A DNA stretch of 51,130 nucleotides. It comes from Bacteroidota bacterium (lineage in GTDB: Bacteria; Bacteroidota; Bacteroidia; Bacteroidales; Prolixibacteraceae). Numbering within the stretch: the first letter of the stretch is position 1; every line of letters begins with the position of its first letter. Under the pieces are notes generated by a model. The model was given only the letters and a program-made list of their open reading frames with translations. It was not told the origin of the DNA and searched no databases. The DNA lies in NCBI GenBank assembly GCA_023251435.1, contig JAHEYU010000042.1:1-51130 (forward strand), written 5' to 3'. Positions 21,318 to 42,567 of the stretch are shown piece after piece. The position numbers were made by a program, and so were the translations under genes.

Positions 21318-22499
21318 TTACACTAATTCAACTGTCACTTTTTTGAAAAAGCGGGTTTCAAGCAATCGTACAATGCGCCGAACGACCGACTTGCGAATTT
21401 CGAGTTCGACCGGTTGGTCGGGATCCTGATGTGCCCAGTTGATGCGGGTTCCGACAATAATATGAATGTCATCGTGTTGTGTCAGAAGTTTAACAACTTC
21501 TTCCGGCGGACTGTCGCCCAGTCGCATGTCGCTTGTGTAATTCTCCAGAATTTCCTCCACTCGTCCCAAAGTCAGAATCCCTTCGGTAACAATTTCGAAT
21601 CCTTCCATTCTGGCGGCCGGCGGCAATGTTTTTTCCGAAAAGCGGTGCTGAATATCAATTTCCAAATTCAATTCGCGGGCGATAATTTCGGCAGTTGTTC
21701 CACCACAAATAATTTTCTTCCCCGGAAATTCCTGAATTTTCTTCACAAAATCGGCATCCTTGATTTTATAAAAAGGTGGACCGGTAATCAGCATAAACTG
21801 ACGGGGTTGTCTGAAATAAACGACTCCGCAACTGGCGTCGTCGCGCATTTCGAAGGCATCGTTCATCGAAGCCTGGTTTAGAATTTTTCGGGCCAGTTTG
21901 GTGGCCGATATCTCAAACTCGCGTGCAATCTGGCTTTCGGCAAATATTTCAATATTATCGAGGCCCCAACCTGTGGGAAAACGTTTGCTTCCCAAACCTG
22001 ACTGCGCAATTCCATCGGTCATGAAAATAATCCGGTCTTCGAGCATTGGCGAAAACTCTCTGATTCGCAGTATTTTGCCTGCATTTTCTTCACCTCTGAT
22101 TGGAATCTGAATTTCTTTTGGATTAAAAACCTGTCCTCTTCTGAAAATTACCGAGCGCGGATTGTCGTAGTTGATGATGCGAACCTGGCCGTCATCTTCA
22201 ATTTCAATAATGGTGAAAGTGGCATAACTTTCTTTTCCGTCCCTGCTTTTGGGCAGTGCCCGCATAAAAATATTGGCTGCAACTTCGGGTTTTGTATGGA
22301 AAGAAGCGTAGTTTAAAGCCATTGAAGCAGTGAGAGTTGCAAGTACATTTGCTTTTACGCCATGTCCGATCCCATCCGAAAGTACCAGAATACTTCGCCC
22401 TTCCGCTTTTATCACCCGCGAATGGAATACATCTCCGCAAACAACCTGTCCATGCCGGTTGAGCTGATGAAGATCGACTTCTATGTGGTAATCGGCCAT
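21318..22499 (-). CDS. SpoIIE/PP2C-type serine phosphatase of the hydrogenase regulatory cluster
   Basis: A 393-residue cytoplasmic phosphatase. The PP2C/SpoIIE core occupies roughly residues 10-230, with the metal-binding ILVLSDGIGHGVKANVLATL near 40, an IIFMTDGI strand and a MRDDASCGVVYF end motif. The last 150 residues form a separate domain (ITGPPFYKIKDADFV, IICGGTTAEIIAREL) that I associate with PP2C proteins in hydrogenase gene clusters. In partner switching, such phosphatases dephosphorylate a STAS protein that an RsbW-like kinase has phosphorylated. An RsbW-like ATPase is encoded at 24285; no STAS protein is visible here. The PAS gene lies just upstream on the same strand. It is not evidence of sporulation. 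Confidence 0.85.
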   Translation of the reverse strand: MADYHIEVDLHQLNRHGQVVCGDVFHSRVIKAEGRSILVLSDGIGHGVKANVLATLTASMALNYASFHTKPEVAANIFMRALPKSRDGKESYATFTIIEIEDDGQVRIINYDNPRSVIFRRGQVFNPKEIQIPIRGEENAGKILRIREFSPMLEDRIIFMTDGIAQSGLGSKRFPTGWGLDNIEIFAESQIAREFEISATKLARKILNQASMNDAFEMRDDASCGVVYFRQPRQFMLITGPPFYKIKDADFVKKIQEFPGKKIICGGTTAEIIARELNLEIDIQHRFSEKTLPPAARMEGFEIVTEGILTLGRVEEILENYTSDMRLGDSPPEEVVKLLTQHDDIHIIVGTRINWAHQDPDQPVELEIRKSVVRRIVRLLETRFFKKVTVELV

Positions 22500-22591
22500 T
22501 TTTAAAAAGGTTTTAAGTTCCAGGTTTCAAGTTCCAAGTGTCGCCCTTGTCTATTTAGTATTGGGCATTTGTTGTTATCTTCTTATTTTTT

Positions 22592-22618
22592 ATTCGATAC
22601 TGGATATTCGATATTGGA
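22592..22618. repeat. Short tandem duplication between the PP2C and PAS genes
   Basis: ATTCGATACTGGA (22592-22604) is repeated as ATTCGATATTGGA (22606-22618) with a 14-base period. No function is evident. A fragment of the G-rich repeat (TTGGGGGAGGCT) lies just after, near 22650-22661. Confidence 0.5.
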
Positions 22619-22665
22619 AATTGGTTATTTGAATTTCCTTTCTTTTACTCGTTGGGGGAGGCTCG

Positions 22666-23592
22666 TTATTCATCCTCTCCGTATTGATATGATTCTATGA
22701 TCGAATTCAATAGTTCCTCGGTCAGAGAAGCGTTATCGCCAAGCAGGAAGGCGATTTTTTGCACAGTTTCGAGGTTTTGCCTGTTTACTCGCTGAGCACG
22801 GCTGATAATCTCTTCGCGTACCAGCGATGGTGCCGACATATCGCGCAGTAATGCCCCAACTACCCGATGTTTATAAATAGTAATTACCGAAACGTGTAAC
22901 AGTTTATTTTGGATTTTCAGGTCGCGTTCAATCATATTTTCGCCCGAAACCAGGGCAGATGAAAACATCTTGTAAATCATTTCAGGTACCAGTTCTTTCA
23001 GGTCGGCTCCGTGCAATCCCGGAATTGTTTCGTACAATTCTTCAATCTCGGGGCCGAAAAGTTTTGCAAATCCTTCGTTCGAGTCAATTACTTTGAATTC
23101 ACTGTCAATGATTATAATCCCAGCCCTGATTTTATGCATCATGGCCGAAGCGATCACCGTTGCTTCACGGGCTTTCTCCAATTTTCGCTCAGCCTTTTTC
23201 CGCTCAGTAATATCGAAAATGGATCCAACAATCCCCATAATTTCACCTTGATTATTCCGTATTACTGCCTTGTTGAAAACAACATCGTGCAGTGTGCCGG
23301 TAGCATCGCGAAACTTAGCTTCATAGTTCTGGTCGCCCGGGCTGTCGAACAATTCCTGATCGCGTTTCGAGTAAATTTCGGCGATCTCAAAAGGCTGGAT
23401 ATCGAAAACCGTTTTACCGATAATCTGTGATTTGGGCAATCCCAATAGTTTTTCCTGTGCCAGATTGCAGGCTTTGTATATGCCGTTCAGGTCGCGGTAG
23501 AAAATCGGAATTGGCAATGCATCAATGATTTTCTGATGCAATTCGGGATCATCAATAAACCCCTGGTTGAAAGATTTTTCTTCGTAAATCAT
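22666..23592 (-). CDS. Two-PAS-domain protein, apparently the detached sensor part of a HydS-type hydrogenase
   Basis: A 308-residue cytoplasmic protein with two PAS domains (about 15-130 and 150-255). The first ends in the PAC-like GIVGSIFDITERKKAERKLE; the second holds AGIIIIDSEFKVIDSNEGF. There is no kinase, cyclase or helix-turn-helix. The C-terminal helix (ETVQKIAFLLGDNASLTEEL) resembles the tail of clostridial HydS-type hydrogenases that have a C-terminal PAS domain. The HydS-like gene at 24695 lacks PAS, so function may have been split between two genes. It is divergent from the DRTGG-HydS operon and precedes the PP2C gene. The ligand, perhaps a redox or H2-dependent signal, is not predictable. 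Confidence 0.75.
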   Translation of the reverse strand: MIYEEKSFNQGFIDDPELHQKIIDALPIPIFYRDLNGIYKACNLAQEKLLGLPKSQIIGKTVFDIQPFEIAEIYSKRDQELFDSPGDQNYEAKFRDATGTLHDVVFNKAVIRNNQGEIMGIVGSIFDITERKKAERKLEKAREATVIASAMMHKIRAGIIIIDSEFKVIDSNEGFAKLFGPEIEELYETIPGLHGADLKELVPEMIYKMFSSALVSGENMIERDLKIQNKLLHVSVITIYKHRVVGALLRDMSAPSLVREEIISRAQRVNRQNLETVQKIAFLLGDNASLTEELLNSIIESYQYGEDE

Positions 23593-23808
23593 GGTGTGTG
23601 AATTTCGAACTTAAATTACGAATCTAATCCTGAATATTCAATTTTATTTTACAATTTCTGGAATCAGCGCAATTTTAGCAGGCGATTCACTTTTTGAAAT
23701 TCAAATCCCTTAACTGAAACCATTTTAAATAAGCCTCAATCCTGATTTTGGTCAAGGGTATTCAGTTATTTTTTCTGAAATTTGCCGCAAACCCCTTTAA
23801 AATAGAAA

Positions 23809-24153
23809 ATGAAGCTAAAAGAGATTGCCGCTGTATTAAATGCAACGACATCATGCGGAGCCGATAAGCTGGAGGAAGAGGTGGAGATGGGCTATAGTTC
23901 TGATCTGATGAGTGATGTTTTGACTTTGGATACCGATAACCTGATACTGATCACCGGGCTTGTTAATGTACAGGCGATACGCACAGCCGAAATGGCCGAC
24001 ATCCGTGCCATTGTTTTTGTGCGCAATAAAAAAGCGAATGAGCAAATGCTCGAACTGGCAAACGAAAACGGATTGGTGATTCTGGAATCGCCCTACTCAC
24101 TGTTTAAATCGAGTGGCCTTTTATTTCAGGCCGGATTGAAACCCATTTATTAA
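23809..24153 (+). CDS. DRTGG-domain protein, first copy
   Basis: A 114-residue DRTGG-domain protein (MKLKEIAAVLNATTSC..., with YSSDLMSDVLTL and NLILITGLVNVQAIRTAE). DRTGG domains are found between the catalytic parts of some phosphotransacetylases and next to CBS domains; stand-alone copies recur in hydrogenase operons of anaerobes. The biochemical role is unknown and ligand sensing is the usual suggestion. It opens the plus-strand operon that continues with the ATPase, the HydS-like protein, a second DRTGG gene and a PHP gene. The gap to the divergent PAS gene (216 bases) holds both promoters. It is only weakly similar to the second copy at 26052, so an old duplication is likely. Confidence 0.82.
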   Translation: MKLKEIAAVLNATTSCGADKLEEEVEMGYSSDLMSDVLTLDTDNLILITGLVNVQAIRTAEMADIRAIVFVRNKKANEQMLELANENGLVILESPYSLFKSSGLLFQAGLKPIY

Positions 24154-24250
24154 TTTACGATTAGACGATTTACCATTTACGATTTTCGGATAACGACCAG
24201 GAAACAAAGCATGAAAAACTTGAAATCCTTTCATCATAGCGATTTTTTCT

Positions 24251-24282
24251 CCCCCTCTTTCGGAGGGGGTTGGGGGGAGGCT
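24251..24282. repeat. G-rich dispersed repeat, copy 2, forming the ribosome site of the next gene
   Basis: CCCCCTCTTTCGGAGGGGG then TTGGGGGGAGGCT ends three bases before the ATG at 24285. Its GGGAGG is the only Shine-Dalgarno-like sequence available to that gene. Confidence 0.7.
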
Positions 24283-24284
24283 GT

Positions 24285-24695
24285 ATGAAACTATTTTTTT
24301 CCATACAAGGAGGTGATTTTACCCGCGCCGGACATCCGTCGAGCGAGGTGAAAAAGGTATTGAAGCAATTGGACATTGATGGAAAAACCATTAAAAATAT
24401 TGTGATTGCCCTATATGAAGCCGAAGTGAATGTAGTGGCGCATGCCTGGAGGGGAACTGTTTCGGTTGAAATTGATGAAAATAAGATCATTATTGTAGTT
24501 GAAGATGAAGGCCCCGGCATCCCCGATATTGAACAGGCTATGCAGGCCGGGTTTTCGACGGCGAGTAAAAAAGTTCGTGAAATGGGTTTTGGAGCCGGAA
24601 TGGGCTTGCCCAATATGAAAAAAAATACGGATGAACTGATAATTGAATCGGAAGTGGGAAAAGGTACAAAAGTAAAAATGATCAACTGTTTTTAA
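24285..24695 (+). CDS. RsbW-like anti-sigma factor/serine kinase ATPase
   Basis: A 136-residue GHKL-fold ATPase of the anti-sigma type. The N box is LYEAEVNVVAHA, the G1 box DEGPGIPD and the G2 box GFGAGMGLPNMKK. It lacks any histidine kinase phosphoacceptor domain. RsbW/SpoIIAB-type proteins bind a sigma factor or phosphorylate a STAS protein. Paired with the PP2C phosphatase at 21318 it would make a partner switch. The in-frame TTG at 24270 would start inside the G-rich repeat; the ATG at 24285 fits the family start and uses the repeat's GGGAGG as ribosome site. Its stop shares one base with the start of the HydS-like gene (TAATG), showing tight coupling. Confidence 0.85.
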   Translation: MKLFFSIQGGDFTRAGHPSSEVKKVLKQLDIDGKTIKNIVIALYEAEVNVVAHAWRGTVSVEIDENKIIIVVEDEGPGIPDIEQAMQAGFSTASKKVREMGFGAGMGLPNMKKNTDELIIESEVGKGTKVKMINCF

Positions 24696-26065
24696 TGATT
24701 GGGAATCCAACATATCATTCACTCGATCCGGCCAAATGCATTGGCTGTACGCATTGCATGAAAGTCTGTCCTACGGAAGCCATCAGGGTGGTAAATGGTT
24801 TGGCGGTAATCGACGACGATCGCTGTGTGTATTGCGGACAATGCCATCGCGCTTGCCCGACCCATGCATTTTTTGTTGTTCAGGACGATTTGGCAATGAT
24901 CCGTTCGTTCAAATACCGCGTCATTCTGTTTCCGTCAATCATGATTGGCCAGTTTCCGGAGAAATACAGTGAAGACCAGATTTACGATGGCTTGAAAAAA
25001 GTTGGGTTTACTCATATTTATGAGGTGGAGCAACCTCAGCAAGTGCTGATTGATTCTATTAACGAGGTCCTTAAAGATAAGGAAACGCCCAAACCAGCCA
25101 TCTCCATTTATTGTCCGGCCATTGTCCGGCTTATTCAGGGGCGATATCCTTCGTTAACAGAAAATCTGATTTTGCGGAAAGCACCGCATAATCTCGCGGC
25201 TCATTTTGCCATCGAACAGTTAATGCTTGAAGGAGCCTTGCGCGAAGAAATAGGACTTTTTTATGCTACGCCATGTATTGCTAAAATTGCAGCGGTAAAA
25301 AGTCCGGTTGGAGAGAGCGAGTCGATTGTCGATGGTATTGTCAACATGAACAAGTTGTACAACGAAGTGATGAAAGTTATTTCTGATGGCGAAGTTGAAG
25401 ATCATTCAGTTCAGCGCCAAAACCTATCTGCAGAAGGAATTATGTGGAGCCTTACCCGCGGAGAATCCTGCCACTTCGGTTCGAGAAGTATTGCCATTGA
25501 TGGTATTAACAATGCCGTGCGTTTCCTTGAAAGGCTCGAAAACGACCAGGTGCACGGTATCGATTTCATTGAAATGCGAGCCTGCGACCAAAGTTGTGCC
25601 GGTGGAATTTTGCTCACCGGAAACAGGTTTATGACGGTAGAACGACTCGAACGACGCGCCAAACGGTATCCGGCAGCCAAAGATATCTCATCAGAAAAAA
25701 TACGGGTCAACACCGAAGGATTAAAAGAAAAACTGATTCTTGACCCCATCAGCCACAAACCGCATTTTATATTCGGGAAAGATCGTTTAAAGGCTATGGA
25801 AAAAATGAACAGGGCACAACGCATTGTGTGCTTTTTGCCTGGCATCGATTGCGGAGCATGCGGAGCCCCCAATTGCCATGCCCTGGCCGAAGATATGGTG
25901 AACAACAAAGCCAAAATGTCGGATTGCATTTTCCTGCAGCAAATGTGGGAAGACGAAGGAAAGATTACGGCAGGAAAAGCACTCCTGAATGTACAGAAAA
26001 AATGGGGAACAGATAGATTTAAAGCAGATTGTAATAAAAGAGGACGACGAAATGAAGGTTTCTGA
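24695..26065 (+). CDS. HydS-like [FeFe] hydrogenase-related protein, putative sensor
   Basis: A 456-residue protein. Two N-terminal [4Fe-4S] ferredoxin motifs (Cys 15/18/21/25 and 44/47/50/54) precede an H-cluster-type domain. The four cluster cysteines appear kept: IYCPAIVRL (Cys 140), ATPCIAKI (Cys 194) and ACDQSCAGG near 300. A C-terminal Fe-S motif follows (GIDCGACGAPNCHAL, then MSDC). The L1 motif has Tyr-Cys where catalytic enzymes have Cys-Cys, so the usual proton-relay Cys is missing. There is no small-subunit tail and no PAS domain. These are traits of the group C/D hydrogenases thought to sense H2 or redox state. It overlaps the ATPase gene by one base and the next DRTGG gene by 14. 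Confidence 0.85.
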   Translation: MIGNPTYHSLDPAKCIGCTHCMKVCPTEAIRVVNGLAVIDDDRCVYCGQCHRACPTHAFFVVQDDLAMIRSFKYRVILFPSIMIGQFPEKYSEDQIYDGLKKVGFTHIYEVEQPQQVLIDSINEVLKDKETPKPAISIYCPAIVRLIQGRYPSLTENLILRKAPHNLAAHFAIEQLMLEGALREEIGLFYATPCIAKIAAVKSPVGESESIVDGIVNMNKLYNEVMKVISDGEVEDHSVQRQNLSAEGIMWSLTRGESCHFGSRSIAIDGINNAVRFLERLENDQVHGIDFIEMRACDQSCAGGILLTGNRFMTVERLERRAKRYPAAKDISSEKIRVNTEGLKEKLILDPISHKPHFIFGKDRLKAMEKMNRAQRIVCFLPGIDCGACGAPNCHALAEDMVNNKAKMSDCIFLQQMWEDEGKITAGKALLNVQKKWGTDRFKADCNKRGRRNEGF

Positions 26066-26387
26066 AATTGTTGAAAAACTTGATTTAAAAGTGTATTCAG
26101 GCCGGAAAGGTCTGGATCGCGAAATTTCGGGCGGATATGTTTCCGACCTGTTGAGTGATGTAATGGGAAATGCACAGGAAGGCGAGGTCTGGATTACCTT
26201 GCAGGTGCACCAGAATGTAATGGCCATCGCTTCGCTGAAAGATTTGGCAGCCGTAATTCTGGTGAATAATCTCGAACCGCATGAAAATACGGTCAGGCAT
26301 TCCGACGACGAAAATATTCCGGTATTGGGAACCAGTTTGTCAACCTTCGAAATATCGGGTAAGCTCTACCAACTCTTAAATCAATAG
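26052..26387 (+). CDS. DRTGG-domain protein, second copy
   Basis: A 111-residue DRTGG-domain protein (MKVSEIVEKLDLKVYSG, GGYVSDLLSDVMGNAQ, VWITLQVHQNVMAIASL). The start is the ATG at 26052, which has an AGAGGA ribosome site and lies 14 bases inside the end of the HydS-like gene. The longer frame from 25989 would overlap far more. Two stand-alone DRTGG proteins around one HydS-like protein suggest they form a heterodimer or bind it. The next gene (PHP) starts three bases after the stop. Function is unknown beyond the family trend for regulatory ligand binding. Confidence 0.82.
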   Translation: MKVSEIVEKLDLKVYSGRKGLDREISGGYVSDLLSDVMGNAQEGEVWITLQVHQNVMAIASLKDLAAVILVNNLEPHENTVRHSDDENIPVLGTSLSTFEISGKLYQLLNQ

Positions 26388-26389
26388 CT

Positions 26390-27133
26390 ATGAAATCGTT
26401 CAGGACTGATCTTCATATCCATACGGTATTGTCGCCTTGTGGTGATCTGGAAATGAGTCCTTTACGAATTGTTTTGCTTGCCAAGGAGCGCGGTTTAGAT
26501 ATTATCGGAATCACCGATCACAACAGTACCCGACAGTGTAAGGTGGTTTGGGAGCTGGGGCAAAAAGCTGGTCTTACAGTTATTCCCGGATGTGAAGCCA
26601 CCACACGTGAGGAGGTTCACTGCCTCACTCTTTTTCCCGATTTTGATGCGTTAAACGAATTTCAGGACTTTTTGGATATGCATCTTACGATCATTCCAAA
26701 TGAAGCTTCCTTGTTTGGCTATCAGGTGGTGGTCGACGAGGACGAAAATATACTGGAAGAATTTCATAACTATCTGGGCGCATCGCTTGACATAAGTGTC
26801 GAAGAAGTGGAGCAGAAAGTACACGAACTCTCCGGCATTTTTATCCCTGCACACATCGACCGGCCACGAAACAGTCTTTTCAGTCAACTTGGGTTTTTCC
26901 CTCCTGAATTAAAAGTTGACGCTCTTCAGATTTCGAAACTGGCTGAAGAAATAGCCGTTCGCCAAAAATACTGGATTAAGCCTGATATCACCCTTGTGAA
27001 ATTTTCGGATGCTCATTATCCTGAAGATCTGGGAAAAACATATACTATTTTTGAAATGGAAGAACCTTCTTTTGCCGAAATAAGAAGAGCGTTGAAGGGC
27101 GAAGCCGGGCGAAAAGTGATTATTCCACAGTAA
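26390..27133 (+). CDS. PHP-domain phosphoesterase of the hydrogenase cluster
   Basis: A 247-residue PHP metallo-phosphoesterase. Metal-binding motifs are visible: TDLHIHTVLSPCGD near the N-terminus, GITDHNS, PGCEATTRE, PAHIDRP and a final FSDAHYPEDLG. All His and acidic positions expected for a tri-metal PHP site are present. PHP enzymes hydrolyse phosphoesters such as nucleotides or histidinol phosphate. Stand-alone ones next to DRTGG and HydS-type genes recur in anaerobes, so a signalling nucleotide is a reasonable but unproved substrate. It ends the operon that starts at 23809; the 232-base gap that follows carries a new promoter. Confidence 0.88.
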   Translation: MKSFRTDLHIHTVLSPCGDLEMSPLRIVLLAKERGLDIIGITDHNSTRQCKVVWELGQKAGLTVIPGCEATTREEVHCLTLFPDFDALNEFQDFLDMHLTIIPNEASLFGYQVVVDEDENILEEFHNYLGASLDISVEEVEQKVHELSGIFIPAHIDRPRNSLFSQLGFFPPELKVDALQISKLAEEIAVRQKYWIKPDITLVKFSDAHYPEDLGKTYTIFEMEEPSFAEIRRALKGEAGRKVIIPQ

Positions 27134-27365: not shown

Positions 27366-29258
27366 ATGGAAGATTTATTAAAGTCATGTCAGCAAAAAGG
27401 AATTTCGTTGCCAGCCGACCTGGTAGATATCCTTACCAATTGTAAAAGTTTGACGGTTTTTAATTCAACAGAAGAACTTGCCGTTGCATCTACCAACGGA
27501 ATTGAAAACCATGAATTTGAAGTGAAATACGATGTTGATGGTATAGGAGAATACACCGAAGCAATTGTTCACAGAGTAAAAAATGGTATCTCGGCTAATT
27601 ATACCGATGCGTATATGCGCCGCCGCGACCCCGACACCATGGTGATTGCCGACAAACTACCAACCGATAAACAGCGTTTCAGCGAGCGTTTTAATTACGA
27701 ATTTGATACTTTGCGTACCCAAACTTTCGATTGGCTGAAGAAACAAGATCTTGCCGTTTTCTTCTATTTTGCAGGCCGCGATGGAATTGGTAGTGGTGGA
27801 ATTGCCGTAGCTCCTGCAAATGCTGCATTTTTTGCAATGGGTTTGTCGATGCTTCAACAAATTATCCCGGTAGCAGAACTTTCTGAAAAATTCGAAATAA
27901 AATCACTTATTTATGTTGCTCCGCCATTCAGGCATACTCATTTTGCCGGAAAACAAATTGTAGTGCACAATCGCACTGAAAATATTCATGAACTTTTTTC
28001 GTACAACCTTTATCCTGGACCCAGCGCCAAAAAGGGACTTTATGGCGTACTGCTTTCGCAGGGCGAAAAAGAAAACTGGATTACAGCTCATTGCAGCACG
28101 GTTCAGGTGGTGAGTCCCTACGACAATACCACAACTTTTATGCACGAGGGAGCCAGCGGCGGTGGAAAAAGCGAAATGCTGCAACATATTGTGCGCGAGC
28201 CTAATGGGCAAATTCTGATAGGAGAAAATACGGTAACGGGCGAACAAAGGCTGATTAACATCCCACTGCTTTGTTCGTTTAATCCTGTAACCGACGATAT
28301 GGCGCTTTGCCATCCTTCCATTCAAAAGAAAAATGGTCGTTTGCGCGTTACTGATGCTGAAAACGCCTGGTTTATCCGGGTTGACTCTATCAATCAGTAT
28401 GGCGATGATCCTTTTCTTGAAAAAATTAGCCTTAATCCCTCAAAACCGCTGCTTTTCCTGAATGTTGAGACTACTCCGCAATCAACTGCACTGATTTGGG
28501 AACATATTCAGGATTCGCCCGGAAAGAAATGCCCGAACCCACGTGTTATTCTTCCCCGCGACATCGTTCCAGGTGTGCTTAATAAACCTGTTTCGGTTGA
28601 TATCAGAAGCTTTGGAGTGCGCACTCCTCCATGTTCGCTTGAATCGCCTTCATACGGAATTCTTGGTTTGTTCCATTTGCTGCCACCGGCATTGGCTTGG
28701 TTGTGGCGTTTGGTTTCTCCTCGTGGACATGCCAATCCGAGCATTGTGGGGACGGGAGGAATGGAGTCGGAAGGTGTTGGATCTTACTGGCCTTTTGCAA
28801 CCGGCAAAATGATTACCCATGCCAACCTTCTTTTGGAACAGATTGTCAACACCCCAAAAATGAGGTACGTACTTACTCCCAACCAATATGTTGGAGTTTG
28901 GAAAGTTGGCTTCAAACCACAATTATTGATGCGCGAATACCTTACGCGTCGCGGAAACGCTTCATTGAGACCCGATCAGTATCAGCCCGCACGAGGAAGT
29001 ATTCTCGGATACGAAATGAATTACCTCACCATCGAGGGAGCAAAAATACCTTCACGATTCCTGAAAGTTTATCGCCAGCCTGAAGTTGAAGAGCAGGGTT
29101 ACGATGCAGGTTACCAGGCGTTGATTGAATTTTTCAAAAATGAAGTGAAAAAGTACGATCAGGAAGGCATTTCCCCATTGGGCAAAAAAATTATTGATGC
29201 TTGCCTGAATGATGCTACAGTAGAAGAATACGCAACTCTTATTGAAGTGAAGAATTAG
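27366..29258 (+). CDS. DUF4914-like P-loop protein resembling PEP carboxykinase
   Basis: A 630-residue cytoplasmic protein. A P-loop (HEGASGGGKSEML, near residue 260) resembles the kinase loop of ATP-type PEP carboxykinase and HPr kinase. The rest lacks the standard PEP carboxykinase motifs I would expect, such as the GTP-type FPSACGKTN. I associate this length and P-loop with the uncharacterised DUF4914 family of anaerobes, from memory. Other marked segments are FFYFAGRDGIGSGGIAV, YNLYPGPSAKKGLYGVLL and GGMESEGVGSYWPFATGK. It has its own promoter and is followed after 23 bases by a Sua5-type gene. The reaction is unknown; a nucleotide-dependent phosphotransfer is the most that can be inferred. 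Its place inside the hydrogenase region may or may not be functional. Confidence 0.7.
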   Translation: MEDLLKSCQQKGISLPADLVDILTNCKSLTVFNSTEELAVASTNGIENHEFEVKYDVDGIGEYTEAIVHRVKNGISANYTDAYMRRRDPDTMVIADKLPTDKQRFSERFNYEFDTLRTQTFDWLKKQDLAVFFYFAGRDGIGSGGIAVAPANAAFFAMGLSMLQQIIPVAELSEKFEIKSLIYVAPPFRHTHFAGKQIVVHNRTENIHELFSYNLYPGPSAKKGLYGVLLSQGEKENWITAHCSTVQVVSPYDNTTTFMHEGASGGGKSEMLQHIVREPNGQILIGENTVTGEQRLINIPLLCSFNPVTDDMALCHPSIQKKNGRLRVTDAENAWFIRVDSINQYGDDPFLEKISLNPSKPLLFLNVETTPQSTALIWEHIQDSPGKKCPNPRVILPRDIVPGVLNKPVSVDIRSFGVRTPPCSLESPSYGILGLFHLLPPALAWLWRLVSPRGHANPSIVGTGGMESEGVGSYWPFATGKMITHANLLLEQIVNTPKMRYVLTPNQYVGVWKVGFKPQLLMREYLTRRGNASLRPDQYQPARGSILGYEMNYLTIEGAKIPSRFLKVYRQPEVEEQGYDAGYQALIEFFKNEVKKYDQEGISPLGKKIIDACLNDATVEEYATLIEVKN

Positions 29259-29281
29259 TAACCAATCCCGGCCAGGAATAT

Positions 29282-30259
29282 ATGCAAACAGGAACAGATG
29301 TTGTTTATGCTGCTGATTTGTTAAGAAAAGGGAAGTTGGTGGTTTTTCCCACCGAAACTGTTTATGGTTTGGGCGCAAATGCTTTTGACGCGTATGCTGT
29401 GGCCAGAGTATTCAGTGTAAAAAAACGCCCGACTTTCGATCCGCTGATTGTTCACATTTCAGCATTCGAACAGATTGAACAGCTTTTCCAATCGCCTATC
29501 GATGAGCAGGTTTATACCTTGGCAAAGGCTTTTTGGCCCGGACCGTTAACAATTGTACACAATAAAAAACCTGAAGTGCCCGATTTGGTCACTTCGGGTT
29601 TACCTACAGTTGCAGTGCGAATGCCATCTCATCCTGTTGCTGCTGAGCTGATCAGGTTGGCAGGTGTACCGGTGGCTGCACCCAGCGCTAATCTTTTCGG
29701 ATGCCTGAGCCCGACCCAGGCAAATCATGTAGAAAAACAACTTAATGAACCTGATTATCTCCTTGATGGAGGTCAGACTATTTTCGGTATTGAATCGACT
29801 GTGGTATCGGTTGAACCTGGCGGGGTCAGGATTTTACGGCATGGAGCTATCTCCCAAGAATCTTTGGAGGTTCATGTTACCATTTTAACTGAAAAAGAAG
29901 TGGAAAAATCGGGACAATTGCCATCGCCCGGAATGCTTAAAAGTCATTATTCTCCACGAAAACCTTTGTACATCATAAAAGAGTCTAACTTTGGCAAAAT
30001 AAATGAGGAATCGGGCGTTATTATAAATTCTTCATACACGATGAAAAATTTTAATGGGATTAAAACCATCTCCTTATCTGAAAATGGTAATCTTTGCGAA
30101 ATGGCGGTCAATTTATTTGCAGCATTGCACGTTATGGAGGATGATCCCGAAATAAAACAGATTTTTATCGAACCTGTTTCTGAAACAGGAATAGGAAAAG
30201 CCATTATGGATCGTTTGCGCAAAGCAGCTTATAATTATGATACTGAAGGAAAGCCTTAA
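29282..30259 (+). CDS. L-threonylcarbamoyladenylate synthase, Sua5 type
   Basis: Makes threonylcarbamoyl-AMP from threonine, bicarbonate and ATP for the t6A37 modification of ANN-decoding tRNAs. The YrdC core holds KLVVFPTETVYGLGANA near the start, VKKRPTFDPLIVHIS, AVRMPSHPVA and AAPSANLFGCLSPTQA, with IESTVVSVEPGGVRILRHGAI closing the core around residue 195. The remaining 130 residues, opened by LPSPGMLKSHYSPRKPLYI, are the Sua5-specific domain. The total of 325 residues matches the long form. It is a housekeeping gene lying between the DUF4914-like gene and the XRE-cupin regulator, probably co-transcribed with both. Confidence 0.93.
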   Translation: MQTGTDVVYAADLLRKGKLVVFPTETVYGLGANAFDAYAVARVFSVKKRPTFDPLIVHISAFEQIEQLFQSPIDEQVYTLAKAFWPGPLTIVHNKKPEVPDLVTSGLPTVAVRMPSHPVAAELIRLAGVPVAAPSANLFGCLSPTQANHVEKQLNEPDYLLDGGQTIFGIESTVVSVEPGGVRILRHGAISQESLEVHVTILTEKEVEKSGQLPSPGMLKSHYSPRKPLYIIKESNFGKINEESGVIINSSYTMKNFNGIKTISLSENGNLCEMAVNLFAALHVMEDDPEIKQIFIEPVSETGIGKAIMDRLRKAAYNYDTEGKP

Positions 30260-30270
30260 ATGTTTTGGGT

Positions 30271-30822
30271 ATGAAACGACTGGGAGAAAGAATCAAAAAG
30301 AAACGCGAATTGTACAATATTCAGCTCAATGATCTTGCCAAAAGGGTAGGAATCAGTTCCAGCGCCCTTTCTCAGATCGAAAATGCAAAATCCTCGCCAT
30401 CAATAGTGACACTTAAACATATTGCCGAGTGCTTAAATACCACTATTGGAGAATTGGTTGGCGAGAATGAAAATCTATCTCAAAATCCGCTCGTTAAGTT
30501 CGAGGAAATGAAATACATTGAAACAAATGTAACCGGGAGCCAGCTTTTTTCGCTCTCAAATCACGAACCTCACAAGCAAATGGATAATTTCCTGATCAGA
30601 TTTACCGAAAAATCCACCATTGAAGGGTTATTTTCAAGGCATCGGGGACAAGTATTTTGTTTTGTTTCAGAAGGCAATTTTAGTTTTCATCTTGATGAAG
30701 TTGAATACAAATTAAAAAAAAGCGACAGTTTCTATTTCGACATGGTACTTTCCCACCGTGTTCAGCTTTCCGAAGGTACTTCCGGTGAACTTCTTTGGAT
30801 TGTTAGTCCACCGATTTCCTGA
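30271..30822 (+). CDS. XRE-family regulator with C-terminal cupin domain
   Basis: A 183-residue DNA-binding protein. A helix-turn-helix (IQLNDLAKRVGISSSALSQI, residues 17-40) is followed by a linker and a cupin barrel (HRGQVFCFVSEGNFSFHLDE and DSFYFDMVLSHRVQLSEG). Regulators of this shape sense small metabolites such as polyamines, amino acids or sugars. The start is the ATG at 30271 (MKRLGERIKKKRELY); the TTG six bases before is less likely. It lies 11 bases after the Sua5 gene and just ahead of the hydB-hydA operon. It could control that operon, but no operator was identified. Confidence 0.85.
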   Translation: MKRLGERIKKKRELYNIQLNDLAKRVGISSSALSQIENAKSSPSIVTLKHIAECLNTTIGELVGENENLSQNPLVKFEEMKYIETNVTGSQLFSLSNHEPHKQMDNFLIRFTEKSTIEGLFSRHRGQVFCFVSEGNFSFHLDEVEYKLKKSDSFYFDMVLSHRVQLSEGTSGELLWIVSPPIS

Positions 30823-31069: not shown

Positions 31070-31618
31070 ATGAAAGACCTTTCACTCCATATCCTCGATA
31101 TTGTCCAGAACTCAATCAGGGCAAAAGCTGCGCTGATTGGGATAGAAATTACCGAACAACCCAGGGAAAATAAACTGATTATTGCCATTACTGACGATGG
31201 AACCGGTATGAGCCCGGAGCAATTACAACGTGCCATCGATCCGTTTTATACTTCGCGAACCACCCGTAAAGTTGGTTTGGGTCTGTCCCTTTTTAAACAA
31301 AATGCGGAGATGACCGGCGGCTCATTTATCATTGAGTCGGAGTTAGGAAAAGGAACAAAAGTGACCGCAATATTTGGAATGAATCACCTCGATCGTCCGG
31401 TAATGGGCGATTTAGTCGGAACCCTGCTTATTTTGATTTGCTCGCCCGAAAGTCCCGACTATGTCTTTAAACATCAAACACCTTCAGGAGAATTTGAAAT
31501 TGATACACGAGAAGTGAGGCAAACGCTTGAAGATGTTCCGCTTACTCATCCTGATGTAAGGCAATTTCTGAAAGAAATGCTTCAGGAGAATTTAGAACAA
31601 ATCCAAATTAGTGAATGA
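31070..31618 (+). CDS. GHKL ATPase of the hydrogenase operon
   Basis: A 182-residue protein with the ATP-binding fold of histidine kinases but no sensor or phosphoacceptor part. The N box is HILDIVQNSIRAKAALI, the G1 box DDGTGMSPEQLQ and the G2 box GLGLSLFKQNAEMTGG. The last 70 residues (VGTLLILICSPESPDYVFKH) form a separate small domain. Genes of this kind occur between hydC and hydB in many clostridial and thermotogal HydABC operons; their role is unknown. It starts the operon with the HndB-like, hydB and hydA genes. The 88-base gap to the next gene holds degenerate TTAGYGAAT repeats. Confidence 0.82.
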   Translation: MKDLSLHILDIVQNSIRAKAALIGIEITEQPRENKLIIAITDDGTGMSPEQLQRAIDPFYTSRTTRKVGLGLSLFKQNAEMTGGSFIIESELGKGTKVTAIFGMNHLDRPVMGDLVGTLLILICSPESPDYVFKHQTPSGEFEIDTREVRQTLEDVPLTHPDVRQFLKEMLQENLEQIQISE

Positions 31619-31706: not shown

Positions 31707-32102
31707 ATGAACAAAATAAAATCGCTGGCTGACTTAAAGAAGCTGCAAACTGAAGTTCAGTCGAAAATAAAATTACGTGAAATGGGCGACCATTCCGAAA
31801 CTTTAATTCAAATCAAGGTGTCGATGGCAACCTGCGGCATTGCTTCCGGCGCCAAGGAAACCATGTCTCATTTCATCGAAGAACTCGACCATCAGGGAAT
31901 CGATGTCATTGTTACACAAACAGGCTGCATGGGTTATTGCTACGCCGAACCTACCATCGAATTGACTATTCCCGGTCAACAACCTGTTGTTTACGGGTTT
32001 GTTAACAAAGCAAAAGCCCAGGAAATTATCGAAAAACATGTCAAACTAAACGAAATGGTTGACGGAATTATACCTGTAAACTATTCTTCAATAGATAATT
32101 AA
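31707..32102 (+). CDS. HndB-like thioredoxin-fold [2Fe-2S] ferredoxin
   Basis: A 131-residue small ferredoxin-like protein. IKVSMATCGIASGAKE and IVTQTGCMGYCYAEPTIEL place three Cys around a thioredoxin-like fold. Classical NuoE-type [2Fe-2S] proteins need four Cys (C-x4-C and C-x3-C); the second one is absent here, as I recall for the HndB family of NADP-linked hydrogenases. It probably delivers electrons or stabilises HydB, whose own N-terminus has a related domain. The next gene starts six bases after the stop. Confidence 0.8.
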   Translation: MNKIKSLADLKKLQTEVQSKIKLREMGDHSETLIQIKVSMATCGIASGAKETMSHFIEELDHQGIDVIVTQTGCMGYCYAEPTIELTIPGQQPVVYGFVNKAKAQEIIEKHVKLNEMVDGIIPVNYSSIDN

Positions 32103-32107
32103 CCATT

Positions 32108-33901
32108 ATGGCCGATTACAACATGCACATTCTTGTTTGCGGTGGTACCGGATGCAAGGCTTCACAAAGCGAACTGATCAAATCAAATTTCAAAACCCGA
32201 CTCAACGAATTCGGACTTTCCGACGAAATTCAGGTAATTATGACGGGCTGTTTCGGGTTCTGCGAAAAGGGACCCATCGTTAAAATACTGCCCGACAATA
32301 CTTTCTACACGCAGGTTACGCCTGAAGATGTTTTTGAAATTGTTGAGGAGCACGTTATTAAAGGGCGAAAAGTGGAACGTCTGCTTTACAAAGATCCCGA
32401 GTCGAAGGAACATATTGTCGATACCAAAGGAATGGATTTTTACAAAAAACAGATTCGCATCGCTTTGCGAAACTGTGGTTTTATCAATCCTGAAAATATT
32501 GAGGAATACATCGGGCGCGATGGTTATGCAGCATTGGGAACTTGTCTTTCAGAAATAACTCCTGATGAGGTTATCCGAATGATCAAAGATTCCGGGTTGC
32601 GTGGGCGAGGCGGCGGTGGTTTTCCAACCGGACTGAAATGGGAGCTGACACGAAAATCAGTAAGCGACCAGAAATATGTGGTTTGCAATGCCGACGAAGG
32701 CGATCCGGGAGCGTTTATGGATCGCTCGATTCTGGAGGGTGACCCACATTCGGTGCTCGAAGCAATGGCCATTTGCGGATACTGTATTGGCGCCGACAAA
32801 GGGCTGGTTTATATCCGTGCTGAATATCCGTTGGCCATCGAACGCCTGAAAATTGCGATCAATCAGGCACGGGAATATGGTTTGCTCGGTAACGATATTC
32901 TGGGAACCGGTTTTAGTTTTGATGTCGAAATCCGATACGGAGCTGGCGCTTTTGTATGCGGCGAAGAAACTGCGCTGATTCATTCGATGGAAGGCAAACG
33001 TGGCGAACCAACTGTTAAACCACCATTTCCGGCCGAAAAAGGATACAATGGCAAACCTACCAATGTGAACAATGTGGAAACTTTTGCCAACATTCCGGTG
33101 ATCATCAACAAAGGAGCAGAATGGTTTGCTTCCATCGGGACAGCCAATTCGAAAGGCACCAAAGTATTCGCACTCGCCGGAAAGATTAACAATGTTGGTT
33201 TGATTGAAGTTCCGATGGGAATTACCCTTCGCGAAATTATATACGATATTGGTGGCGGTATCAAAGATGGCCGCGAATTTAAGGCCGTTCAAACAGGCGG
33301 ACCTTCCGGTGGTTGTTTAACCAAATCATTTCTGGATACTCCCATTGATTACGACAATTTAGTGGCAGCTGGTTCGATGATGGGTTCGGGTGGAATGATC
33401 GTTCTCGACGACTCGGATTGTATGGTTGCCATTGCCAAATTTTACCTCGAATTTACGCTTGACGAATCGTGCGGAAAGTGCACTCCTTGCCGGATTGGCA
33501 ACAAACGCCTGTACGAAATTCTCGAAAAAATAACCGAAGGCAATGGCAAAGTCGAAGATCTAAACCGGTTGAGAATGCTTAGTTCGGTCATTAAAGATAC
33601 TTCGCTTTGTGGCCTGGGACAAACATCTCCCAATCCGGTACTTTCAACGCTCGATCATTTTTACGACGAATATCTGTCGCACGTTACTTCGCACAAATGT
33701 ATCGCTGGTCAGTGCAAGGCATTGATGCATTATTCAATAGATGTCGACAAGTGTACCGGTTGTACGCTTTGTTTCAGAAATTGCCCGGTTGGCGCCATTT
33801 CAGGAGAGAAACGTGCGTCACATTACATCGACCAGTCGCTGTGCATCAAGTGTGGTGTGTGTTTCGCAAAGTGTAAGTTCGATGCAGTTTTAATTGCCTA
33901 A
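32108..33901 (+). CDS. hydB: HydB, flavin/NAD subunit of electron-bifurcating [FeFe] hydrogenase (long form)
   Basis: A 597-residue NuoF-type subunit that should bind FMN and NAD(H) and, with HydA and HydC, couple H2 to NADH and ferredoxin. An N-terminal thioredoxin-like [2Fe-2S] domain (LVCGGTGCKAS, TGCFGFCEKG) is followed by the flavin/NAD core: LRGRGGGGFPTGLKW near 160, CNADEGDPGAFMDRS near 196 and GAGAFVCGEETAL. Next are the [4Fe-4S] motif SCGKCTPCRIGNKR and, at the C-terminus, two more [4Fe-4S] motifs (DKCTGCTLCFRNCP and SLCIKCGVCFAKC). The full set of extra clusters matches HydB proteins shown in other anaerobes to bifurcate. The second hydB at 41363 lacks both terminal domains. hydA follows after 11 bases. 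Confidence 0.92.
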   Translation: MADYNMHILVCGGTGCKASQSELIKSNFKTRLNEFGLSDEIQVIMTGCFGFCEKGPIVKILPDNTFYTQVTPEDVFEIVEEHVIKGRKVERLLYKDPESKEHIVDTKGMDFYKKQIRIALRNCGFINPENIEEYIGRDGYAALGTCLSEITPDEVIRMIKDSGLRGRGGGGFPTGLKWELTRKSVSDQKYVVCNADEGDPGAFMDRSILEGDPHSVLEAMAICGYCIGADKGLVYIRAEYPLAIERLKIAINQAREYGLLGNDILGTGFSFDVEIRYGAGAFVCGEETALIHSMEGKRGEPTVKPPFPAEKGYNGKPTNVNNVETFANIPVIINKGAEWFASIGTANSKGTKVFALAGKINNVGLIEVPMGITLREIIYDIGGGIKDGREFKAVQTGGPSGGCLTKSFLDTPIDYDNLVAAGSMMGSGGMIVLDDSDCMVAIAKFYLEFTLDESCGKCTPCRIGNKRLYEILEKITEGNGKVEDLNRLRMLSSVIKDTSLCGLGQTSPNPVLSTLDHFYDEYLSHVTSHKCIAGQCKALMHYSIDVDKCTGCTLCFRNCPVGAISGEKRASHYIDQSLCIKCGVCFAKCKFDAVLIA

Positions 33902-33912
33902 AAGCCTTATTT

Positions 33913-35664
33913 ATGGAAATGATAAATCTTACAATTGATCATAAACCGGTAGTTGTTCGTAAAGGAACTACGGTACTGAAAGCTGCTTCGAGTATCGGAA
34001 TTGATATTCCGACACTTTGCTACATGAAGCTGGACGATATGAATATAGAGAATAAACCCGGAGGATGCCGTGTTTGCGTGGTCGAAGTGAAGGGTCGCCG
34101 CAATCTTGCGCCAGCCTGTTGTACCGAAGCCACCGAAGGAATGGAAATAAGTACACACACCATTCGCGTGGTAAATGCCCGCAGGACAGTGGTTGAATTG
34201 ATTTTATCTGACCATCCGGCTGATTGTCTGATCTGCGCCAAATCTGGCAACTGCGAATTGCAGGACATGGCTCATCATCTGGGAATCAGGCAGATTCATT
34301 ATCAGGGCGAACAGTCGATGTACCGCGAAGACACCTCTCCGGCAATTATCCGTGAGATCAACAAATGCATTATGTGCCGCCGCTGCGAAACCATGTGCAA
34401 CGACGTACAGACCGTTGGTGTTCTTTCGGCTGTCAACCGCGGATTTCAGGCAGTTGTAGCACCCGCATTCGAAATGAATCTCGACCATTCTGTTTGTACT
34501 TATTGCGGGCAGTGTGTGGCTGTTTGTCCTACCGGCGCATTAACTGAAGTTGATGAGACCGGAGCTGTTATCCGCGCTCTTTCCGATCCGAAAAAAACTG
34601 TTGTTGTTCAGACCGCTCCTGCAGTACGTGCAGCATTGGGCGAAGAATTCGGAATGTCTGCCGGAACATTGGTTACAGGCAAAATGGTTGCAGCTTTGCG
34701 CCGGTTGGGATTCGATTACGTTTTTGATACCGATTTTGCTGCCGACCTCACCATTATGGAAGAAGGAACCGAATTGCTGAACCGTTTATCGGCTTATATG
34801 GCTGGCGATCAGAACGTGAAACTTCCGATTCTGACTTCCTGCTGTCCGGCGTGGGTGAAGTTTTTCGAGCATTCTTTTCCTGAATTAAAAGACATTCCTT
34901 CGACTGCACGGTCGCCGCAGCAGATGTTTGGTTCGATTGCCAAAACCTACTTTGCTGATAAAATTGGCGTGAAACGCAAAAATCTGGTGGTAGTTTCCAT
35001 TATGCCTTGTCTGGCGAAAAAATATGAAAGCAGTCGTCCTGAATTTGCTGTGAATGGCAATCCTGATGTTGATTACGCGTTGACAACTAGAGAATTGGCT
35101 CATTTGATCAATCTTGGCAACATCGAATTCAAATCACTTCCGAATGAAGAATTTGATTCACCGTTGGGTGAATCGACCGGAGCTGCTGTGATTTTCGGCA
35201 CAACCGGAGGAGTAATCGAAGCTGCTGTACGGACAGCTTATGAAGTGTTCACCGGAAAGCCATTGCCCCGCGTAGATTTTGAAGAGTTGCGAGGAATGGA
35301 AGGTTTGCGCAAAGCAACCATCGACTTTAACGGAACGCCGATTAACATTGGGATTGCGCACGGATTGGGAAATGCGCGTAAGTTGCTCGAAGATATTCAG
35401 GCCGGAAACAGCGAGTTCCATGCCATCGAAATCATGTCGTGCCCGGGCGGTTGTATTGGTGGTGGCGGTCAGCCGTACCATCATGGCGATGCCGAAATTC
35501 TGAAAAAACGCCAGCGCGCCATTTATTCGGAAGATAAAAACAAAACACTCCGGAAATCGCACGAAAATCCATATATCACGAAGCTTTACGAAGAGTTTTT
35601 GGGTGCCCCATTGAGCGAAAAGGCGCATCATCTGCTGCATACCAAGTATTTTGACAGGAGCTAG
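33913..35664 (+). CDS. hydA: HydA, catalytic [FeFe] hydrogenase subunit, first copy
   Basis: The 583-residue catalytic subunit of the NAD-linked [FeFe] hydrogenase. It has an N-terminal [2Fe-2S] domain (Cys 36, 52, 55 and 69/70) and a His-ligated [4Fe-4S] segment (HPADCLICAKSGNCELQ). Two [4Fe-4S] motifs follow (KCIMCRRCETMC from Cys 152 and CTYCGQCVAVCP). The H-cluster domain has LTSCCPAW (Cys 310-311), MPCLAKKYE (Cys 366) and MSCPGGCIGGGGQP (Cys 510 and 514). The small-subunit tail (LRKSHENPY...PLSEKAHHLLH) is present. All cluster ligands and the proton-relay Cys are there, so it should make or take up H2. It is followed not by hydC but by an S23 gene framed by repeats. Maturation needs HydE (48137) and HydF/HydG, which are not in the window. 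Confidence 0.95.
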   Translation: MEMINLTIDHKPVVVRKGTTVLKAASSIGIDIPTLCYMKLDDMNIENKPGGCRVCVVEVKGRRNLAPACCTEATEGMEISTHTIRVVNARRTVVELILSDHPADCLICAKSGNCELQDMAHHLGIRQIHYQGEQSMYREDTSPAIIREINKCIMCRRCETMCNDVQTVGVLSAVNRGFQAVVAPAFEMNLDHSVCTYCGQCVAVCPTGALTEVDETGAVIRALSDPKKTVVVQTAPAVRAALGEEFGMSAGTLVTGKMVAALRRLGFDYVFDTDFAADLTIMEEGTELLNRLSAYMAGDQNVKLPILTSCCPAWVKFFEHSFPELKDIPSTARSPQQMFGSIAKTYFADKIGVKRKNLVVVSIMPCLAKKYESSRPEFAVNGNPDVDYALTTRELAHLINLGNIEFKSLPNEEFDSPLGESTGAAVIFGTTGGVIEAAVRTAYEVFTGKPLPRVDFEELRGMEGLRKATIDFNGTPINIGIAHGLGNARKLLEDIQAGNSEFHAIEIMSCPGGCIGGGGQPYHHGDAEILKKRQRAIYSEDKNKTLRKSHENPYITKLYEEFLGAPLSEKAHHLLHTKYFDRS

Positions 35665-40883: not shown

Positions 40884-41366
40884 ATGAATCCTGTTTCCGA
40901 ATTGATCAAAAATCTGGCCGATCAACACGGCCGAAACCGGCATAACCTGCTGCCCATTCTTCAGGGTGTAGTCGAACAGGAAAAGTATCTGTCGGAATTT
41001 TCTATGGTCGAAATTGCGCGCGAACTTGACTTGCCTGCTTCTGAAGTCTATGGTACGGCAACCTTCTACTCGTTTCTGGAATACAAAAAGATGGGTAAAT
41101 ACATTATTCGTATCTGCAAAACCATCACCTGTTCTATGAAAGGGAAAAATCAAATTTTACTTGCTATTGAAGACATGCTGAAAATTCATGTCGGTGAAAC
41201 CACGCCTGACGGGAATTTCTCATTGCTCCAGACCAACTGCCTCGGTTTTTGCCACAAAGCGCCCGCTATGCTGGTAAACAGCGAAGTATATACCGACCTT
41301 ACACCGGAGAAGGTACGTGAAGTTTTAAGTTCTTACCTTAAAAAGCAAAAGGAGGAGAAGGTATGA
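40884..41366 (+). CDS. hydC: HydC, NuoE-type [2Fe-2S] subunit, second copy
   Basis: A 160-residue thioredoxin-fold electron carrier of the second hydrogenase. All four ligands are present (ICKTITCSMKG, C-x4-C; TNCLGFCHKAPAML, C-x3-C). VYGTATFYSFLEYKK is the usual core motif. It is only distantly like the copy at 36222, so the two operons are not a recent duplication. It is first in the operon, as in most HydABC loci, and its last codons overlap the start of hydB (GTATGA). Confidence 0.92.
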   Translation: MNPVSELIKNLADQHGRNRHNLLPILQGVVEQEKYLSEFSMVEIARELDLPASEVYGTATFYSFLEYKKMGKYIIRICKTITCSMKGKNQILLAIEDMLKIHVGETTPDGNFSLLQTNCLGFCHKAPAMLVNSEVYTDLTPEKVREVLSSYLKKQKEEKV

Positions 41367-42547: not shown

Positions 42548-42567
42548 TTCTGAAAAAATGAACTGCG

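Follow-up and report, generated by a model that had tools for sequence, protein, structure and literature searches.

Sensory-type [FeFe]-hydrogenases (HydS) of group D, or M2e, as delineated by Land et al., lack a PAS domain and carry a C-terminal Cx2Cx4Cx16C motif (PMC8163306), and the literature passages cited here treat group D HydS as only a putative sensor (PMC8163306, PMC13104023). TamHydS of Thermoanaerobacter mathranii joins these two traits to an adjacent histidine-kinase-like ATPase and to a position upstream of a bifurcating group A hydrogenase (PMC8163306, PMC13104023); an AraC regulator is reported in this case, and the cited text asks how the enzyme passes its signal on when its operon encodes no PAS domain (PMC8163306). 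Enzymes of group C3, entered in HydDB as 'phosphatase-linked (putative)' sensory [FeFe]-hydrogenases (PMC5037454), and RaHydS of Ruminococcus albus (PMC6776011) are described there with a Ser/Thr phosphatase accompanying a PAS-bearing sensor and with hydrogenase genes alongside. Here we analyze a locus in a 51,130-nucleotide stretch of Prolixibacteraceae DNA, hereafter the window (assembly GCA_023251435.1, contig JAHEYU010000042.1), in which a PAS protein and a SpoIIE-type phosphatase stand divergently to a cassette of five genes, DRTGG1-ATPase-HydS-DRTGG2-PHP, upstream of a hydrogenase operon, hyd1. The comparisons detailed below show that these genes fall into two modules that can occur apart and that meet at a shared promoter, in place of a single obligate partner switch.

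The PAS-SpoIIE pair and group C3 sensory hydrogenases

The two genes on the minus strand encode a SpoIIE/PP2C-type serine phosphatase of 393 amino acids (21318..22499; Pfam SpoIIE, 3.5e-13) and a PAS-PAS protein of 308 amino acids (22666..23592; PAS_9, 6e-15). Residues D42, D162, D220 and D221 of the phosphatase, which we take to be the PP2C metal site, are invariant in 36/36 sequences, and the top Protein Data Bank matches of its AlphaFold2 (AF2) model (predicted local distance difference test score, pLDDT, 85.9) are phosphatase domains of the SpoIIE, RsbX and RsbU type. Beyond the phosphatase domain lies a C-terminal domain of its own of about 160 amino acids (residues ~235-393) with conserved GGTTA and TEGILTL stretches; the best 50 Foldseek matches are phosphatases, with no separate fold match for this domain.

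Outside Prolixibacteraceae, this phosphatase keeps different company. In the loci fetched from other families of the order, SpoIIE lies away from the cassette and directly downstream of a protein of 566-648 amino acids. The nine such proteins scanned, among them that of L146 from the Prolixibacteraceae genome G428, contain Fe_hyd_lg_C, Fer4-type and FeS parts, with a PAS tail found in the Pfam listing for some and by alignment for the others. By this domain make-up the partner is a group C HydS, of the kind that HydDB assigns to C3. Similar pairings are found more widely, as a fused group C HydS with SpoIIE in a Spirochaetia genome (G456, L228), as HydS-SpoIIE pairs in 13/16 other genomes of the phylum (L184-L196, with HydS seen as fragments at locus edges), and as such pairs in 34/34 fetched Bacillota loci (32 genomes, out of the 120/398 with a match), the HydS of L237 being in two open reading frames (ORFs). 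Judged by sequence and tree, the window phosphatase is an orthologue of the group C3 HydS-linked phosphatase.

The PAS protein itself points in the same direction. Residues ~131-308 correspond to the C-terminal signal helix, PAS domain and conserved tail of group C HydS, with 42-47% identity to six HydS from the order (E down to 7e-47) and 32-41% to three further ones (L147, L141, L146), while residues ~17-130 form a separate PAS domain at the place of the HydS hydrogenase part. Among 93 non-redundant rows, a set that leaves out SpoIIE ORFs of <=330 amino acids, the neighbor of the phosphatase is a HydS with its hydrogenase part in 58 (including L184, where an ORF intervenes, L237, split over two ORFs, and L231, which lacks its cysteines), the Prolixibacteraceae PAS protein in 32 and a PAS protein of 168 amino acids in three. 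The SpoIIE tree unites the 32 PAS-linked Prolixibacteraceae rows in a single clade (100/100), gives it seven HydS-linked rows from the order's other families as sister group and nests it within HydS-linked rows. The tree thereby makes the headless form of Prolixibacteraceae the derived one, the hydrogenase part apparently having been lost in the line leading to this family. The three 168-amino-acid rows form a second, separate headless clade, so at least two changes are needed. These rows come from family f14 (L229:6512-8452, L182, L183), where a small protein of 96-99 amino acids, resembling the [2Fe-2S] protein that leads group C loci, precedes the PAS-only protein and SpoIIE.

Two points weigh against this derivation: the PAS tail aligns weakly to Bacillota HydS (best 4e-9, several above 0.01), and the SpoIIE tree was rooted by a midpoint guess, so that the loss would turn into a gain if the true root lay within the Prolixibacteraceae clade. 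With these in mind, the PAS protein is best regarded as a derivative of a group C3 sensory hydrogenase and not as a member of that group: it is paired directly with a SpoIIE-type phosphatase, as are C3 enzymes, and, unlike group C3 HydS and RaHydS, it has a second PAS domain where the fused Fe-S and H-cluster domains would stand. The initial annotation of this DNA had described a split PAS protein; understood as a piece of the HydS encoded nearby, that description gives way to an origin from a different, group C HydS. A fragment of the neighboring HydS was rejected as an explanation, as the PAS protein aligns to group C HydS tails and the window HydS has no PAS match in Pfam. A frameshift or assembly error was likewise rejected, since PAS partners of 308-354 amino acids (mechanically called) recur in 32 non-redundant rows. 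No description of the PAS-SpoIIE pair was found in the open-licence literature.

Other sensory hydrogenases of this type show changes of their own. In all three H-cluster loops the cysteines are gone from the fused group C HydS of genome G437 (L143:9231-11174, the same as L231), with the frame still open. This HydS is still paired with SpoIIE, divergent to nuoE-hydB-hydA, in a genome without a match to the group D-like HydS, and may represent another way of arriving at a sensor that is possibly blind. One H-cluster cysteine is lost in the fused HydS of L148, and 54/56 aligned fused HydS keep all of them. Sensory-type hydrogenases short of H-cluster motifs are also described, in the cited text, for group C1 of Hydrogenedentota, where these motifs are hardly found (PMC11406978); like L143/L231 of G437, those enzymes keep a hydrogenase domain, whereas the phosphatase-linked system of Prolixibacteraceae has lost the whole hydrogenase part. 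Both forms occur together in the Prolixibacteraceae genome G428, with a PAS-SpoIIE pair on C79 and, on C1 (L146:6511-11097), a fused group C HydS with SpoIIE followed by a protein of 88 amino acids and an [FeFe]-hydrogenase of 474 amino acids.

The cassette upstream of the hydrogenase operon

On the plus strand the cassette begins with DRTGG1 (23809..24153; 114 amino acids), followed by an RsbW/SpoIIAB-like GHKL ATPase (24285..24695; 136 amino acids; HATPase_c_2, 1.8e-12), a PAS-less sensory-type HydS resembling group D (24695..26065; 456 amino acids; Fe_hyd_lg_C, 2.4e-20), DRTGG2 (about 26052..26387; 111 amino acids) and a PHP-family phosphoesterase (26390..27133; 247 amino acids; PHP, 1.1e-7), whose nearest NCBIfam models are of the TrlF/Ppl type, with scores below their cut-offs. 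The ATPase stop overlaps the HydS start, the HydS end overlaps the DRTGG2 start and PHP follows DRTGG2 immediately, and the plus-strand genes from ATPase to PHP are therefore read as one transcription unit. All seven genes named in the initial annotation are present as intact ORFs at the positions given above.

Its placement of the set beside hydBAC stood only in part, as three extra genes (window 27366-30822) part PHP from the hydrogenase genes proper (31.07-35.66 kb). These we name, by eye, as DUF4914-like, Sua5-like and XRE-cupin. Among the compared loci only the nearest relative (L042/L081) shares all three; L079/L089 have part of the insertion, and in most others PHP is followed by HATPase-Fdx-HydB-HydA. 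In the window the hydrogenase operon encodes, all on the plus strand, a second GHKL ATPase (31070..31618), a thioredoxin-like [2Fe-2S] protein with weak family matches (31707..32102), the NuoF-like diaphorase HydB (32108..33901) and the catalytic [FeFe]-hydrogenase HydA1 (33913..35664). A second hydrogenase operon lies at window 40884-44358, its HydA being 49% identical to HydA1. The genome as a whole (5.73 Mb in 148 contigs, the window being on contig C136) encodes four Fe_hyd_lg_C proteins, namely HydA1, HydA2, the group D-like HydS and an enzyme of 481 amino acids on C14, with no group C HydS among the four.

HydS homologues (E <=1e-30) are found in 5/395 genomes across the phylum, this genome included, and in 36/61 relatives; a scan of named genomes yielded 35 HydS loci, mostly from Prolixibacteraceae, with others from Bacteroidota, one Spirochaetia metagenome-assembled genome (MAG) and one Oscillospiraceae MAG. 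Gene order was counted in the 55 non-redundant loci having at least two genes on either side. DRTGG1-ATPase lies directly upstream of HydS in 55/55, and the arrangement is therefore far above chance. A strict count places DRTGG2-PHP directly downstream in 40/55, a figure that is low mostly because an extended DRTGG2 ORF overlapping HydS was filtered; with tblastn covering the other 15, both genes are found in 54/55 loci, L112 being the exception. Where enough downstream sequence was available, HATPase follows the cassette in 50/51 loci and HydB in 47/51. A lack of joint conservation in relatives had been named at the outset as one of two outcomes that would count against a link with hydrogenase control; on the conservation half, the cassette genes prove to be co-conserved with hydrogenase genes in relatives. 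The cassette is a conserved part of the hydrogenase operon, reading as a piece of hydABC. No natural fusions among DRTGG, ATPase, HydS, PHP and SpoIIE were found in the searched loci.

HydS consists of two [4Fe-4S] clusters, the H-cluster domain and a C-terminal Cx2Cx4Cx16C motif. All four H-cluster cysteines (loops L1-L3) and the C-terminal motif are kept in 55/55 non-redundant rows, and a Pfam scan found no PAS domain in the window HydS. The residue before the L1 cysteine, which we take from the CC motif to be the proton-relay position C299 of CpI, is F in 35, Y in 18, A in 1 and R in 1 (n=55), leaving no proton-transfer cysteine there. Two further columns presumably correspond, in CpI, to M353 (T 47, S 6, A 2; n=55) and, two residues before the first L3 cysteine, to M497 (R 49, K 2, H 2, N 1, Q 1). 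On this presumed equivalence, the L3 arginine of the window group (49/55) may differ from the leucine of TamHydS. The cited text gives Ser for CpI M353 and Leu for M497 in TamHydS (PMC8163306). In its PAS-less form, its C-terminal motif, its adjacent histidine-kinase-like ATPase and its place upstream of a bifurcating group A hydrogenase, the window HydS resembles the PAS-less group D enzymes typified by TamHydS (PMC8163306, PMC13104023). Unlike the TamHydS operon, the window cassette adds two DRTGG genes and PHP, with the PAS protein and phosphatase divergent alongside.

The ATPase is most like SpoIIAB, all four matched Protein Data Bank sequences being the anti-sigma F factor (SpoIIAB), with scores of 73 bits against a SpoIIAB cut-off of 135 and 35 bits against an RsbW cut-off of 145; its catalytic Glu and Asn are kept in 58/58 sequences. 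The DRTGG proteins belong to the DRTGG domain family (PF07085), DRTGG2 by both profile (27.7 bits, above the Pfam cut-off) and fold, DRTGG1 by a profile score just under the cut-off (23.3 bits against 25.2). Only two positions never vary in 38/38 DRTGG1 and DRTGG2 sequences, which come mostly from Bacteroidota and include a Spirochaetia MAG and an Oscillospiraceae MAG: D33 and S36, both in a DxxS motif that reads SDLMSDV in DRTGG1 and SDLLSDV in DRTGG2 of the window (SDLxSDV). In the AF2 model of DRTGG2 (pLDDT 97.7), which has the fold of the HPr kinase N-domain and DRTGG domain (Foldseek matches 2ioj and the CBS-DRTGG part of pyrophosphatase 3l2b/3l31), S36 lies in the first helix turn after a strand, and this serine is a candidate phosphate acceptor or ligand. 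The DRTGG literature cited here describes an AAA-DRTGG gene in another context (PMC10102598).

Separability of the modules and a candidate operator

SpoIIE and HydS commonly occur together in relatives. A SpoIIE orthologue (E <=1e-20) is found in 38/61 relatives, comprising 33/36 HydS-positive and 5/25 HydS-negative genomes (Fisher p 1e-8, uncorrected for kinship). The association does not support a single kinase-phosphatase pair, the reading first given to this locus: at the thresholds used, no homologue of this phosphatase is found in 8/42 HydS-bearing genomes (36 among the relatives, four from the phylum draw and two more), namely G422, G427, G431, G347, G172, G180, G337 and G455, where G347 was shown to be negative and G172, G180 and G337 are not among the 17 SpoIIE positives of the phylum draw. 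Conversely, the PAS-SpoIIE pair is present without the cassette in four Prolixibacteraceae genomes (G400, G404, G421, G426), and elsewhere SpoIIE mostly partners a fused group C HydS. No sensory-type protein is found among the Fe_hyd_lg_C matches of these four genomes, one partial G404 match at a contig end being left unclassed (237 bits, like catalytic HydA).

What the pair does accompany is the hydrogenase operon. Firstly, PAS-SpoIIE is present in 13/15 Prolixibacteraceae genomes with a HydA1-type enzyme vs 0/4 without one (Fisher p 0.004), in a set of 18 hand-picked genomes plus our own that is non-random and uncorrected for kinship, and in which two HydA1-negatives are only 84% complete. 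Secondly, in the cassette-less loci of G400, G421 and G426 (L131, L138, L139) the pair is divergent to Fdx-HydB-HydA. Additionally, of 53 non-redundant loci with enough upstream sequence, PAS-SpoIIE lies divergently, at most six genes upstream of the cassette, in 25/35 from Prolixibacteraceae vs 0/18 from elsewhere, membership of the family being taken from group code or record title. Taken together, the tracking of HydA1, the cassette-less hyd1 loci and the family-only divergence indicate that the pair follows the hyd1 operon and not the cassette itself.

A possible meeting point of the modules lies between them. The space between the PAS and DRTGG1 genes aligns poorly save for a 25-bp imperfect dyad, CTTAnnTnnAACCAnTnTAAATAAG in the form found in the window's genus (23709..23733, plus strand), about 100 bp upstream of DRTGG1. 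With a matrix built from 13 sites and a threshold of 15 bits, the dyad is found upstream of DRTGG1 in 30/35 Prolixibacteraceae loci, a count that includes the training sites and takes L070 (G427) as a locus of the family, L054 and L094 being the same place; it is found in 2/685 control upstream regions after 21 sharing the same intergenic space were set aside. Outside training, it lies between PAS-SpoIIE and Fdx-HydB-HydA in the cassette-less L131 (24.2 bits) and L138 (21.0 bits), so staying with the hydrogenase operon in 2/3 such loci, and, in another family, upstream of a nuoE-hydB-hydA set that neighbors a group C HydS-SpoIIE pair (L145, 20.9 bits). No match of at least 13 bits was found upstream of the window's second hydrogenase operon, and a sigma-70 promoter scan was uninformative (28 found vs 22.1 expected). 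The dyad is thus a candidate operator of the hydrogenase operon, through whose conservation the modules are linked, indirectly, to transcription.

Several observations tell against a picture in which pair, cassette, hydrogenase and dyad belong together. G422 and G427 possess the cassette and HydA1 with no PAS-SpoIIE pair, and no hyd gene is seen among the genes shown around PAS-SpoIIE in G404, G413, G414, G415, G395 and G399. The dyad is missing upstream of DRTGG1 in 5/35 Prolixibacteraceae loci (L056, L059, L061, L062, L070) and in 18/20 loci from elsewhere, being present in two (L063, L111) with L110 just under the threshold; the cassette-less L139 scores 7.0 bits, the other group C HydS-SpoIIE loci scored (L140-L144, L146-L148) reach at most 11.1 bits, leaving L145 the only one with a dyad, and 13 of the scored sites trained the matrix.

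Modes of action and their meaning

We put at about even the chance that two sensory modules of different origin converge on hyd1. In such a scheme H2, or an H2-set redox state, would be read by the PAS-less HydS resembling group D and signalled to its neighbors, the RsbW-like kinase and both DRTGG proteins. The divergent PAS-SpoIIE pair would be the group C3 sensory hydrogenase-phosphatase system minus its hydrogenase part, with the replacement PAS domain (PAS1) acting through the retained signal helix, the second PAS domain and the phosphatase, and perhaps sensing energy or redox rather than H2. SpoIIE might then remove the phosphate put on by the ATPase, for which the invariant Ser of the DRTGG DxxS motif would be the candidate acceptor, and the output could be a factor that binds the dyad and so adjusts transcription of hyd1.

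A possible alternative, to which we give roughly one chance in four, is that the cassette acts on the enzyme and not on the gene, with ATPase, DRTGG, PHP and HydS adjusting HydABC assembly or activity to redox or nucleotides. Such a role would suit a cassette that lies in line with hydBA in most loci, and that combines a phosphoesterase family, PHP, with a fold found in regulatory domains (the CBS-DRTGG pyrophosphatase part 3l2b/3l31 and the HPr kinase N-domain). It fits less readily the loci in which the neighboring hyd genes are divergent (L065, L111, L113) or another hydC2-B2-A2-type operon lies upstream (L064, L069 and L110, in L064 and L110 besides the usual one); such divergent or additional operons weakly suggest that a regulator fits somewhat better than a dedicated assembly factor.

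Rather less probable is an explanation in which PAS-SpoIIE is an independent energy or redox switch, like RsbP of Bacillus, lying beside the hyd genes by chance. The six genomes in which no hyd gene is shown around the pair, and the four in which it occurs with no recognised sensory hydrogenase, agree with independence; its origin in a system paired with sensory hydrogenases, its tracking of HydA1 and its place flanking hyd1 in three cassette-less genomes argue against it. The Bacillus precedents, the PAS-coiled coil-phosphatase RsbP with RsbQ and the partner-activated phosphatase RsbU/RsbT, do share with the window pair, as far as the cited texts describe them, a PAS-coiled coil-PPM logic and the association of a PP2C phosphatase with a regulatory partner (PMC3183031, PMC12143880). 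Unlike in those switches, PAS and phosphatase are here on separate chains and, by the small STAS profile described below, no STAS partner is conserved nearby.

The matter of STAS bears on the partner switch first proposed for this locus, which had been noted to lack a STAS protein in the window and for which a search elsewhere had been suggested. Such proteins do exist in the genome, with five STAS matches, one of them in a frame of 577 amino acids that is SulP-like by length; two belong to a complete, separate set with RsbW-like and SpoIIE genes (C25:46652-51651). A STAS gene conserved in the neighborhood was rejected on a profile search of 7,188 ORFs of the searched loci that gave one clear match (L073, about 7 kb from the cassette), the profile being a small one built from four STAS domains of this genome that could miss distant STAS. 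Compared with an RsbW/SpoIIAB-STAS-sigma system, the locus has the GHKL kinase residues (58/58) and the PP2C Asp residues (36/36), and with the H-cluster ligands of HydS (55/55) the active sites of the components are intact, in keeping with the functions first proposed for them; a conserved STAS phospho-acceptor was not found with this small profile, and kinase and phosphatase are not kept together. As chemistry, the single partner switch first proposed is still conceivable.

An H2-controlled switch free of STAS, in which the kinase would phosphorylate the DRTGG Ser, HydS would gate the kinase and the decapitated C3 phosphatase would supply the opposite arm and PAS input in trans, seems to us unlikely. 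STAS is absent from the best 50 Foldseek matches of the DRTGG2 model, a point that also weighs against the two-module scheme, and the argument for STAS-like behavior of DRTGG therefore comes from the invariant serine. Least likely is a canonical switch, in which the ATPase would bind a sigma factor and be countered by a STAS protein encoded elsewhere and dephosphorylated by this SpoIIE, for although the ATPase is nearest to SpoIIAB and STAS matches exist in the genome, it scores far under the SpoIIAB and RsbW cut-offs, two of the STAS genes sit with a kinase and phosphatase of their own, the searched loci hold a single clear STAS match by the small profile, and ATPase and SpoIIE are not obligate partners (8/42).

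Returning to the convergence of two modules on hyd1, the scheme lends itself to direct testing, as its parts can be separated and the DRTGG serine is invariant. Prolixibacteraceae with named strains (Sunxiuqinia, Mangrovibacterium, Gaoshiqia) keep such a HydS together with defined partners and a candidate operator, and were the STAS-free switch to prove true, it would explain the signalling of PAS-less group D enzymes within the family. In these bacteria the pair also presents what appears to be a natural experiment, in which the hydrogenase half of the other sensor type has been lost and its phosphatase output kept.

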